A DNA stretch of 46,453 bases, taken from Elusimicrobia bacterium GWC2_61_19 (GTDB lineage: Bacteria > Elusimicrobiota > Elusimicrobia > Elusimicrobiales > UBA9959). Position numbers and translations under genes: made by a program. This document shows positions 6,984 to 44,128 of the stretch, one piece after another. The stretch covers positions 1 to 46,453 of the forward strand of contig MGUD01000004.1 of assembly GCA_001799795.1 (NCBI GenBank). Reading direction: 5' to 3'. Position 1 is the first letter of the stretch; the number at the start of each line of letters is the position of its first letter. Under the pieces are notes generated by a model, which was given only the letters and a program-made list of their open reading frames with translations, did no database searches and was not told the origin of the DNA.

Positions 6984-8137
6984 TAGAGCCAGGACCGGAA
7001 GAGGTAGAGCAGTTTTGACGCGGCCTTGGAAGTGAGCGGTCTTTTTCTTACGTCTTCCAGGCTGACCGGCCTGGACAGTTTCAGGTCCTCCCTGAAAGTT
7101 CTGGCCATCGCCGCGCCGAAGGCGGCGCCGTAGACGCTCAGGTTGACCTCCAGGTTGTAATGCAGGCTGCGGTGGTCCAGGTTGTGGCTGCCGACGGAGG
7201 ACCAGACGCCGTCGATCACGGCGGTCTTGGAATGCAGTATGGGGCCCTGCCACTCGTAGAGTTTCACGCCGTTCCTTAGCAGGTGGCCGTACCTGGCCCA
7301 GGAAGCCCAGCGCACGTACGGGTGGTCCGTGTCCCTGGGCGCGATAACGCGCACGTCCACGCCCCGGCGGGCGGCTTTTACCAGGCGGCGGTAAACCAGG
7401 CGGTCCGGCAGGAAGTAGGCGTTGGTGATGTAAATATAATCCTCCGCCTTATCTATGGCGTAGCGGTAGCTGCGCCTTATGGACCGCACGTTGCGTATGC
7501 CGCCGGCCGACAGCACCGAGACCGGCGTGTCCCCGGCCAGCCCCGGCCGCGAGACCTGGCGCGGCGGCACGCGCTCTCCCGTCACGGGGGTGGAGGCGGT
7601 CCAGGCCTCCCAGAAGATCTTCTCCAATTCCGCTACGGCCGGCCCGCGCACTAGCGCCTGCGTATCTTTCCAGCCGCGCCCGCCCATGGACCTGGGCGCG
7701 TCGTACTCCGTGATATTGAAACCGCCGACGAAGGCCGCGCGGCCGTCCACGCAGACGGTTTTGCGGTGGTCGCGTTTTATCCAGTTCCAATAGGGCTTCC
7801 AGAAAATCACCGGGCGGAATTCGGCCACCCGCACCCCGGCCGCGGCCAGGTCCAGAAAGAAGTCGCGGTCCGTAAGAATAGACCCGACCGAGTCGTAGAT
7901 TAGATGGACGGCCACGCCTTCGCGCGCTTTCACTTTAAGCAGATCGGAGAAAGCCCGGCCGATGGAATCGTCGGAGAAGGCGTAGAATTCCAGCAGGATG
8001 GAATCCCTGGCGCCGCCTATGGCCGCCAGCATGGCGGAGAAAGCCGCCTCGCCGCCGGGCAGCAGTTCCACCCCGTTGGCGGCTAGCGCGCTTTCCGGCT
8101 GGGCGCAGTAGCGCCGCCAGTTCTCTTTTTCAGGCAT
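6983..8137 (-). CDS. Phospholipase D superfamily protein, cardiolipin synthase-like
   Basis: Two PLD motifs: HRKTVCVDGRAAFVGGFNITE and HSKTAVIDGVWSSVGSHNLDHRS. Confidence 0.92.
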   Translation of the reverse strand: MPEKENWRRYCAQPESALAANGVELLPGGEAAFSAMLAAIGGARDSILLEFYAFSDDSIGRAFSDLLKVKAREGVAVHLIYDSVGSILTDRDFFLDLAAAGVRVAEFRPVIFWKPYWNWIKRDHRKTVCVDGRAAFVGGFNITEYDAPRSMGGRGWKDTQALVRGPAVAELEKIFWEAWTASTPVTGERVPPRQVSRPGLAGDTPVSVLSAGGIRNVRSIRRSYRYAIDKAEDYIYITNAYFLPDRLVYRRLVKAARRGVDVRVIAPRDTDHPYVRWASWARYGHLLRNGVKLYEWQGPILHSKTAVIDGVWSSVGSHNLDHRSLHYNLEVNLSVYGAAFGAAMARTFREDLKLSRPVSLEDVRKRPLTSKAASKLLYLFRSWL

Positions 8138-26848: not shown

Positions 26849-26955
26849 GGGGACGCTCTTAGTTAATTAGTTTACTCAATACATATCGCGCTGCCGGCCG
26901 GACAGCGGCAGCGCGGGAGCAAAACAGCGTAAACTAATTAACTAAGAGCGTCCCC
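26849..26955. repeat. Palindromic element 1: perfect 27-bp inverted repeat with nested inner hairpin
   Basis: GGGGACGCTCTTAGTTAATTAGTTTAC (26849-26875) and exact reverse complement (26929-26955); inner stem CGCGCTGCCG/CGGCAGCGCG (26887-26896/26906-26915). Confidence 0.95.
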
Positions 26956-39327: not shown

Positions 39328-39591
39328 TTATTTCTTTATGTTCTTGCTGATGATGGTGGCCAGGTCGAACATGGTAACCTGCTTCTTGTTGGCGAAAAGA
39401 GGAAGAAGCTTGGCATCGGCGTTGATGTTGCGCTTGTTCTTCTTGTCCTGCAGGTTGTTCTTCTTTATGTACACCCAGAGTTTCTTAACGATCTCGGTGC
39501 GGGGAAGGGGCTTCGCTCCAACCAGCGCGCCAAGGGTGTCGTTAGGGGTAACGGGGGCCATGAACTTCGAGTTTGCTTTAGCTGCGGGCAT
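39328..39591 (-). CDS. SWIB/MDM2-domain protein
   Basis: LGALVGAKPLPRTEIVKKLWVYIKKNNLQDKKNKRNINADAKLLPLFANKKQVTMFDLATIISKNIK; strong AAGGAGG SD. Confidence 0.92.
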   Translation of the reverse strand: MPAAKANSKFMAPVTPNDTLGALVGAKPLPRTEIVKKLWVYIKKNNLQDKKNKRNINADAKLLPLFANKKQVTMFDLATIISKNIKK

Positions 39592-39635
39592 TGTACGTCC
39601 TCCTTAAGGTCTTGCTTCAAATTACCCCTACATAT

Positions 39636-39661
39636 AACCTATTTTCCATTGGGAGTGTCAA
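39636..39661 (-). promoter_or_regulatory. Putative promoter of the SWIB gene
   Basis: Minus strand TTGACA (39661-39656) followed by TTATAT about 18 nt downstream. Confidence 0.5.
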
Positions 39662-39662
39662 T

Positions 39663-39768
39663 AGGGGGAGGGGACGCTGATGAATTGTTTCCTAATCGCG
39701 GGTAGTTTGCTCGAGACCTGCTGACGGCAGCGGAATTAGGAAACAATTCATCAGCGTCCCCTCCCCCT
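39663..39768. repeat. Palindromic element 2: perfect 34-bp inverted repeat
   Basis: AGGGGGAGGGGACGCTGATGAATTGTTTCCTAAT (39663-39696) and exact reverse complement (39735-39768), 38-nt spacer. Confidence 0.96.
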
Positions 39769-39777
39769 CCCCACCCA

Positions 39778-41358
39778 CTAGATCTTGGGACCGGCGCCGC
39801 TTATCGCTTTGCTGGTCACGTTGAATTTCTTAAAATTCGCCGCGAACAGCCCCGCCAGTTCTTTACACTTGGCGTCATAGAGCTTTTTGTCGGCCCAGGC
39901 TTCGCGCGGGTTCAGCACTTCGGCCGGCACGCCGGGGCACTTAGTCGGGATCTCGAAGCCGAACACCGGGTCCTTGGTGAATTTCACCTTGGCGAGCTTC
40001 CCGTCCAGCGCGGAATTAAGCAGGGCGCGGGTATGCTGGATGCTCATGCGCTTGCCCGTGCCGTAGGGCCCGCCGCACAGGCCGGTATTGATCAGCCAGC
40101 AGTCGGCCTTGTTGCCGCGCATTTTCTTCTCGAGCAGTTCGGCGTAAACCGAGGGATGGTGGCTCATGAACGGCGCGCCGAAGCAGGTGCTGAACGTGGC
40201 CTTGGGCTCTTTAATGCCCATTTCGGTGTTGGCCACTTTGGCGGTGTAGCCGCTTATGAAGTGATACATGGCCTGTTCGTAAGAGAGCCGGGCGATGGGC
40301 GGCAGCACGCCGAAAGCGTCGTAGGTCAGCATCACGATGTTCTTCGGGTGCGGGAAAGCCGCGCCCTTGATGGCGTTGTCTATGAATTCCAGCGGATAGG
40401 CGGCGCGGGTGTTCTCGGTGAGCGAACCGTCGTTGAGGTCCAGCGCGCGGGTCTCTTTATCGTACACCACGTTCTCGAGGATGGTGCCGAAGCGCCCCGT
40501 GGCCGCGTAGATCTGCGGCTCGGCCTCGGCCGACAGGTTGATGACCTTGGCGTAGCAGCCGCCTTCGAAGTTGAAAATACCGTTGTCGCTCCAGCCGTGC
40601 TCGTCGTCGCCGATCAGGCGGCGCAGCGGGTCGGAGGACAGCGTGGTCTTGCCGGTGCCGGACAGGCCGAAGAAAATAGCGGTGTCGCCGGCCTTGCCGA
40701 CGTTGGCGGAGCAGTGCATGGGCATCACGCCCTTAAGGGGCAGCAGGTAGTTCATCACGGAGAAGATGGATTTCTTTATCTCCCCGGCGTAGGCGGTGCC
40801 GCCTATCAGCACGGTCCGGGTCCGGAAGTTCACCAGGATGAAGGCGGCGCCGCGGGTGCCGTCCACTTGGGGCAGCGCGTGGAAGCCGGGCGCGTTGACG
40901 ACCGTGAAATCGGGGATGAAGCCGGCCAGGTCGGCGGCGGGAGGGTTTATGAACATATGCCCGGAGAACAGGCTGTGCCAGGCCAGTTCCGTGTACACGC
41001 GCACCCGCAGGCGGTTCTTGGGGTCGGAGCCGGCGTAGCAGTCGCGCTGGTAAACGTCCCTTACGCCCAAATAGGCCTGCACTTTGCCGAGCAGTTTGTC
41101 GAAGGCGGCCTCTTCTATGGCCACGTTCTGGTCGCCCCACCAGATATGCTTTTCGCTCGCGGGGTCCTTCACTATGAACTTGTCCTGCGCGGACCGGGCG
41201 GTGTGCTTGCCGGTGCGGGCGCACAGCGCGCCGCCGGCGGTGATGACGGCCTCTTTGTTAGTCACGGCGTGCTCGTAGAGCGCGGGGGCGGAAAGGTTCT
41301 TATATATCGTTTTTGAAGTCGTCAGTTCCGCGACGGCGGCGGGTGTTTTGGAGTCCAT
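39778..41358 (-). CDS. pckA: Phosphoenolpyruvate carboxykinase (ATP-type)
   Basis: FFGLSGTGKTTLSSDPLRRLIGDDEHGW, NFEGGCYAKVINLS, GGTAYAGEIKKSIFSVMNYLLP; start likely ATG at 41358. Confidence 0.96.
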   Translation of the reverse strand: MDSKTPAAVAELTTSKTIYKNLSAPALYEHAVTNKEAVITAGGALCARTGKHTARSAQDKFIVKDPASEKHIWWGDQNVAIEEAAFDKLLGKVQAYLGVRDVYQRDCYAGSDPKNRLRVRVYTELAWHSLFSGHMFINPPAADLAGFIPDFTVVNAPGFHALPQVDGTRGAAFILVNFRTRTVLIGGTAYAGEIKKSIFSVMNYLLPLKGVMPMHCSANVGKAGDTAIFFGLSGTGKTTLSSDPLRRLIGDDEHGWSDNGIFNFEGGCYAKVINLSAEAEPQIYAATGRFGTILENVVYDKETRALDLNDGSLTENTRAAYPLEFIDNAIKGAAFPHPKNIVMLTYDAFGVLPPIARLSYEQAMYHFISGYTAKVANTEMGIKEPKATFSTCFGAPFMSHHPSVYAELLEKKMRGNKADCWLINTGLCGGPYGTGKRMSIQHTRALLNSALDGKLAKVKFTKDPVFGFEIPTKCPGVPAEVLNPREAWADKKLYDAKCKELAGLFAANFKKFNVTSKAISGAGPKI

Positions 41359-41413
41359 GGTGCTACCTCTTTTGTTTGTAAGACTGGCGGGCATTTTAGA
41401 CCTCTTAGTCCGG

Positions 41414-44030: not shown

Positions 44031-44128
44031 TATGTCAAGCCCTGTTTTCAGCGTCCCCAGGCCGCGCCGCCCACAGCCGCCTCGCCTCCAGCGGCTTTCT
44101 TTTGTAGAATAAGTCTATCGGAGGTTCT

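Follow-up and report, generated by a model that had tools for sequence, protein, structure and literature searches.

The two long palindromes of the window, by which we mean the whole 46,453-nucleotide stretch of DNA analysed here, are probably non-autonomous derivatives of TIRYT TIRs that are moved in trans by two transposon copies residing on other contigs (C20 and C19) of the same genome. Each arm would consist of a tip that is cut by the HUH domain of the transposase and of two boxes that are bound by its DnaA-like domain. Computed support for this assignment comes from tips and stems that are common to the palindromes and the resident transposons, from a Y1 fold and a DnaA domain IV fold in the transposase, from tandem boxes in the arms, and from insertion-site polymorphism. 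The window is contig C4 of the Elusimicrobiota host assembly (G000), which comprises 1.36 Mb in 29 contigs and is 66% complete.

The palindrome referred to here as element 2 was found exactly where the earlier note had placed it, at positions 39663-39768, as a perfect 34-bp inverted repeat with a 38-nt spacer. Its arms (39663-39696 and 39735-39768, 34 nt each) are 100% complementary and lie 38 nt apart; no inverted repeat in the window is better. Folded as single-stranded DNA, it reaches -48.2 kcal/mol, compared to -15.8 +/- 2.7 kcal/mol for dinucleotide shuffles (z -12.2; 0/200), and because the fold is far more stable than that of the shuffles, the hairpin is not a product of chance. The mobile unit runs from tip to tip (39670-39761) rather than over the whole palindrome, and is assigned to TIRYT subfamily B as a short, non-autonomous element of the dimeric-TIR (MITE-like) kind, given that its arm equals the right TIR of the C19 transposon (28/28 nt). 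The outer 7 bp, AGGGGGA/TCCCCCT (39663-39669 on the plus strand, with 39762-39768), are absent from other copies and probably represent flanking DNA outside the mobile unit. On the plus strand, the left arm contains the tip GGGGACGCT (39670-39678), a putative cleavage end that is conserved in GGGGACG-class transposons, followed by the first and second of two tandem 8-mers, box 1 ATGAATTG (39680-39687) and box 2 TTTCCTAA (39688-39695), the register of which derives from the period-8 analysis described below. The 38-nt loop (39697-39734) is unique, with no second copy in the host genome or in 31 congeners. The right arm mirrors the left on the minus strand, with box 2 at 39736-39743, box 1 at 39744-39751, and the tip AGCGTCCCC at 39753-39761, after which a T forms a CT junction.

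Element 2 lies between two minus-strand genes: a pckA-like gene (ATP-type PEP carboxykinase; 39778-41394; PF01293, E 4e-217) ends beside it, and the 5' region of an 87-aa gene (39328-39591) adjoins it. A promoter-like sequence (TTGACA, 17 nt, GTTATA; minus strand, ~39630-39663) upstream of the 87-aa gene abuts the element and is conserved in about ten congeners. Two further identities for element 2 were considered and rejected, a terminator, as there is no T-tract and a terminator scan made no call at the element, and a known RNA family, as no Rfam family was found.

Element 1 (26849-26955) is the second perfect long inverted repeat of the window, with arms of 27 nt (26849-26875/26929-26955) that are 53 nt apart. 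It belongs to the same class but to subfamily A, carries the boxes TTAGTTAA/TTAGTTTA, and shows identity over 25 nt of the arm to both TIRs of the C20 transposon. Both elements begin with GGGGACGCT and end with AGCGTCCCC, and the observation of the earlier note that they have these tips in common while their inner stems are unrelated was borne out. The motif GGCAGCG is indeed present in both spacers, as had also been remarked, but this is a chance coincidence, the motif occurring at its expected frequency (22 in the window vs 22.75 expected). The loop of element 1 (26881-26921) holds a G+C-rich hairpin of its own (CGCGCTGCCG...CGGCAGCGCG). One further exact tip, at 44050-44058, stands in the window without a partner.

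More than two genomic copies exist, since the host genome contains at least 23 short palindromes with these tips. It also encodes three Y1_Tnp genes (profile match), all on other contigs, consistent with the earlier statement that no transposase lies in the window. Two of them are located inside tip-bounded elements with exactly the tips and stems described above, namely a 1142-bp transposon on C20 (subfamily A) and a 1136-bp transposon on C19 (subfamily B); the third, on C10, is without such tips. The C20 transposon has the stem of element 1 in both TIRs, and the C19 transposon has the stem of element 2 at its right end and a related stem, GATTCCTTGATTCCTAATT, at its left end. The arms of the C19 transposon are unlike, with 4 mismatches, and perfect pairing is therefore not strictly required. 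In subfamily A, 30 arms form 15 pairs with no solo arms, and 28 of the 30 are perfect over 25 nt. The C20 transposon would mobilize the short copies of subfamily A, and the C19 transposon those of subfamily B. The first base outside the tip is a T at 38 of 50 ends, yielding a CT junction; CT is the dinucleotide cut by characterized TnpA-REP enzymes (PMC8266576). The stop codon of the transposase falls within the right TIR (L008, 2424-2449; L010, ~2430-2458), so that the TIR encodes the last residues of the protein. On contig C5, two near-identical short palindromes with similar loops (G000:C5:5592-5671 and 7018-7097) bracket ~1.35 kb with a 279-aa ORF.

The closest known systems are the TIRYT/TIRtron elements of Di Nocera et al. 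2013 (PMC3733652), in which TIRs also recur as dimers, and TnpA-Y1 subclass 2.1.2 (Quentin et al. 2018, PMC6006769). As described in those accounts, such systems have a Y1 gene between long TIRs, a GGGG-type tip, extra single or dimeric TIR copies, a C-terminal Bac_DnaA_C-like domain, and a TIR that overlaps the 3' end of the gene, all of which are also seen here. Specifically, the host elements combine a Y1/HUH domain, flanks made of long TIRs, and a C-terminal HTH of the Bac_DnaA_C type, which along with HTH_23 and HTH_28 is among the types that characterize TnpA-Y1 subclass 2.1. The tip, GGGGACG[CT], agrees with the published TIRYT motif GGGGWSAS, as it is given there, at seven of eight positions, with G rather than A at position 7 of GGGGACGC/GGGGACGT. 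That motif is reported for the majority, not all, of TIRYT flanking repeats; since it is not universal, membership is argued from the protein and the organization of the TIRs. The term TIRYT itself is little used in the literature searched.

The earlier note had likened the palindromes to those associated with REP-type Y1 transposases, which was correct in that a Y1 system with many copies is involved, but the repeats are dimeric TIRs of the TIRYT kind. REPINs (Bertels and Rainey 2011, PMC3116915) are likewise short, hairpin-forming inverted doublets with ends conserved above the spacer and a Y1 protein acting in trans. They differ in that their REP ends carry GTAG and, in the GI type, in a fixed end-to-end distance and a partly conserved spacer (PMC3116915), whereas the arms described here are transposon TIRs, not hairpins, and the loops are mostly unrelated. 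An origin as REP/REPIN elements, that is, GTAG-type REP doublets spread by a RAYT (TnpA-REP), would account for the Y1 transposases in the genome and for hairpins formed by inverted doublets; TnpA-REP also provides the closest solved fold for the HUH part (4er8), and the NCBIfam model REP_Tyr_transpos matches. Yet the matches of both GGGGACG-class proteins fall under the cut-off (67.4 vs 80), no GTAG/CGTC guide tetranucleotide is present, the arm itself is not a hairpin, and the transposases sit within TIR-bounded elements. The flanks of the genes are 25-30-nt TIRs without an internal hairpin, with no GTAG-tagged REPs as in a REPtron. Taken together, this makes a REP origin highly improbable.

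Among 30 homologues of the transposase, the Y1_Tnp domain (PF01797) was detected in all 30 and Bac_DnaA_C in 21 at E<0.01; the alignment has invariant H60 and H62 (HUH) and Y119. The HUH/Y1 catalytic fold is common to the IS200/IS605 elements IS608 and ISDra2; their TnpA proteins bind subterminal hairpins and are not known to carry a DnaA-like domain, and the elements are not known to have long TIRs. An AlphaFold model of the C19 transposase has as its best fold match TnpA-REP with the REP hairpin (4er8, E 1.9e-6). When the C-terminal 80 residues were modelled alone (pLDDT 93), the 12 best PDB matches were all DnaA, among them the DnaA/DnaA-box complexes 1j1v (TM 0.80) and 3pvp (TM 0.78). A profile compared with PDB sequences likewise retrieved DnaA (E 1.7e-5). 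Positions were equated with those of DnaA through a hand alignment to the E. coli DnaA sequence, in which 55 of 63 proteins have R or K at the presumed equivalent of Arg399. Arg399 of DnaA contacts DnaA-box bases specifically (PMC7561715, PMC5043019). In the 2018 account (PMC6006769), the TIR motif is described as unlike a DnaA box, and the domain as one that may skip recognition or have evolved a new target.

The arms join a constant tip, GGGGACG[CT]T, at the end of the mobile unit to a tandem pair of 8-bp boxes. Across 47 inner arms from the genus, the self-match at period 8 was 0.709 compared to 0.313 after shuffling (z 20.5), and none of the other periods from 4 to 10 was raised in this set. 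The signal persisted in 12 non-redundant, mutually unlike arms (0.676 vs 0.297, sd 0.042) and in an independent, phylum-wide set of 23 non-redundant arms from other families (0.635 vs 0.292, z 12.1). TIR detection sought inverted rather than tandem repeats and should therefore not create a period-8 signal. The GGACG tip occurred in both arms of 32 of 33 phylum-wide transposons, and one lineage (ATTCCTA-ATTCCTA) has a period of 7 instead. Canonical DnaA boxes (TTATNMACA) were found 12 times in 96 elements with their 20-nt ends trimmed, where 0.30 were expected and at most 4 occurred in 500 shuffles. The canonical boxes listed have arm offsets of 24-26, in nearly every case 25 or 26, which corresponds to a third tandem unit in phase with the first two; three autonomous elements have a further canonical DnaA box in the TIR, at offset 26. 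In genome G022, hybrid arms (C7:39417, C9:92085, and C22:90556; L254, L259, and L262) set ATGACTAT-ATGACTAT opposite ATGACTAT-ATTCCTAA, which suggests that boxes recombine as modules. The tandem 8-mers, the in-phase DnaA box, and the covariation of boxes with the recognition helix described below are new relative to published TIRYT accounts, as far as those accounts describe the repeats.

Arms of short copies lie within 2 mismatches of a transposon from the same genome in 132 of 176 cases (permutation mean 29.9, maximum 92, p=0.0005), and arm distance tracks transposase distance (Mantel r 0.44). Partial Mantel tests gave 0.152 for the C-terminus given the core and 0.169 for the core given the C-terminus, and did not single out the C-terminal domain. 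When 226 protein columns were scanned against the 8 positions of the box, the top pair joined residue 304 (numbered on the C19 protein) to the first base of box 1; in the hand alignment, this residue presumably corresponds to D433 in the recognition helix of DnaA. Serine at this position is found with C in 12 of 13 cases, glutamine mostly with A, and D, E, or R with T in 7 of 7. In a tree built from the core domain, four of four changes between S and non-S fall on branches with a change between C and non-C, with a probability of ~1e-5 if branches were random. The runner-up pairs score nearly as high (0.65 vs 0.67), probably as a reflection of phylogeny, so that it is the position of residue 304 and the recurrent co-change, rather than the score, that carry the argument. 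The rule was fixed before a phylum-wide out-of-sample search in which, with several test cases near the training set, it was right in 11 of 16. Serine occurred with C in 4/6 compared to 2/27 otherwise (Fisher p=0.005), and glutamine with A in 2/2 (p=0.002); arginine occurred with T in just 3/6, and the rule thus fails in part. That residue 304 sets the first base of the box is accordingly treated as a lead, supported in part by these sequence comparisons.

Alternatively, the DnaA-box-like 8-mers could be incidental, with A+T-rich TIRs being read by the HUH core alone and the DnaA-like domain doing other work, such as targeting replication forks, as proposed in the account of Quentin et al. 2018 (PMC6006769). 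The arms do correlate with the core no less than with the C-terminus. Against this stand the exact period of 8 in divergent lineages, the canonical DnaA boxes in phase with it, the DnaA fold, and the covariation at a base-reading position of the helix, and we regard an incidental origin of the 8-mers as unlikely.

The earlier note had concluded from the compensated stems that selection acts on the fold or that a copying mechanism rebuilds the arm. Arm statistics could be computed directly on aligned arms, because the arms align without gaps, and they do not bear this conclusion out: the two arms of a copy agreed at 1523 positions compared to 1521.5 after shuffling of partners (p=0.31). If either process operated, variants within a family should recur on both arms; in the test for covariation between the arms of one copy, carried out within genome and family, they were mostly on one (58 one-arm variants vs 11 shared). 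The variation in the stems lies between families, each of which matches its own transposon. Fold selection on RNA or DNA, for example for bidirectional intergenic terminators, with compensatory mutation keeping the stems complementary, would fit the very stable hairpin and the terminator-like hairpins at the orthologous site in other species, yet it is most improbable in light of compensation that does not exceed family membership and of arms that match resident transposons. Rebuilding of the arms, with one arm of each copy templated on the other by fold-back copying or template switching, is also very unlikely. In its favour, bases just beyond the common 25 nt of subfamily A match between arms more often than expected (29 vs 18.3, p=0.001), but a test of this kind on data combined from four genomes and their families was null (66 vs 65.4, p=0.46), and mixed arms persist, with 68 of 112 copies perfect and the others not. 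The simplest reading is that the arms of one element agree since both are sites for the same protein.

Sequence comparison between species shows that insertions are species-specific, with empty sites in congeners. Seven congeners have an empty site at the position orthologous to the subfamily A copy located at C16:80463. The site orthologous to element 2 is empty in three congeners, is occupied by a terminator-like hairpin in several, and contains different palindromes in two. One of these, in G009, has the boxes CTTAGTTTTTGAGTTG, matching the G009 transposon L157; the other, in G001, is of another class (GGGGTCAGGTCTTGA). The DNA that separates pckA from its neighbour (39600-39775 and orthologous sites) holds different palindromes in three species, two of GGGGACG type and one of GGGGTCAGGTCTTGA type, and may be read as a place where palindromes land repeatedly or are tolerated. 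Transposase relatives were found in most congeners searched and palindromes in 23 of 32, the elements of congeners being related and hence not independent samples; relatives in named genomes were all from Elusimicrobia. Where ends could be detected, the TIRs of transposons of this class start with (A)GGGGACG or a one-base variant, and the inner stretch after GGGGACG varies between elements but is common to both ends of one element. In a check of generality on plasmids, the four Y1 matches examined were all core-only matches, with other TIR classes or none. Other Y1 elements (L105, L107-L111) have different TIR classes, some of them self-complementary double palindromes (GGGGACAGGCTACTTTTT..., GGGGTCAGACCCTGGGGTCAG..., AAAAAGGTGCC...).

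Loop length varies from almost zero to 61 nt, and nearly all loops are unique although the arms of subfamily A are identical, a pattern unexpected if whole copies simply transposed. Shared loops were found in a few pairs, namely the 52-nt copies at C14 and C17, two on C5, and a pair in G013, so duplication of entire copies is possible as well. Several sources of the loops were considered and rejected. Capture of host DNA was discounted because none of 16 loops had a second match in the 66%-complete host assembly, where ~10 would be expected if they had been copied from the host, and a search of the 31 congeners gave no convincing match for the 16 either. Pre-existing target sequence was rejected on the clean orthologous site of C16:80463 in seven congeners, and the transposon interior because subfamily A loops resemble neither each other nor that interior beyond shuffles. 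The loops may be filler DNA following breakage at the hairpin tip, or may stem from a long-lived pool of mobile copies in which loops drift and arms are kept by selection for mobility. The elements resemble bacterial MITEs (Nezha, RUP, NEMIS) in being short and non-coding with transposon TIRs, which here are those of an autonomous copy in the same genome. Classical MITEs are described as degenerate ISs (PMC3733652), whereas the elements here relate to a single-strand HUH transposase, with a separate loop in each short copy. As the comparison of subfamily A loops with shuffles gave no sign of an interior derived by internal deletion of the autonomous element, the short copies are termed MITE-like rather than classical MITEs.

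Based on these data, a simple model would suggest that single-stranded DNA is cut at the tips by the HUH domain, as by other Y1 enzymes, and that the tandem boxes are the binding sites of the C-terminal DnaA-like domain. A double-stranded array of boxes would form once the arms pair in single-stranded DNA. Since a DnaA-type domain binds duplex, which is present in single-stranded DNA only when the inverted ends pair, end pairing would condition recognition, and this requirement would favour short palindromes as substrates. Each transposase lineage would have shifted its box specificity, with the outcome that inner stems differ between families; the tip would be constant and the self-complementary stem variable because each transposase reads its own box. 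More generally, we tentatively propose, as a possibility somewhat short of an even chance, that a family of single-strand HUH transposases acquired the DNA-reading domain of DnaA, the initiator of chromosome replication, and with it an evolvable specificity for tandem DnaA-box-like repeats that become duplex only upon end pairing in single-stranded DNA.

What the DnaA-like domain does in TnpA-Y1 subclass 2.1 is a question left by the 2018 work, and the comparative data bear on it. If the proposal is true, end pairing, site recognition, and replication coupling would coincide in a single event, and a new specificity would evolve through a change of one recognition-helix residue together with the boxes. 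For hairpins in the same genome with common tips and different stems, the data offer a simpler account than selection on the fold, and the resulting caution about fold-selection readings may extend to other families of palindromic repeats.
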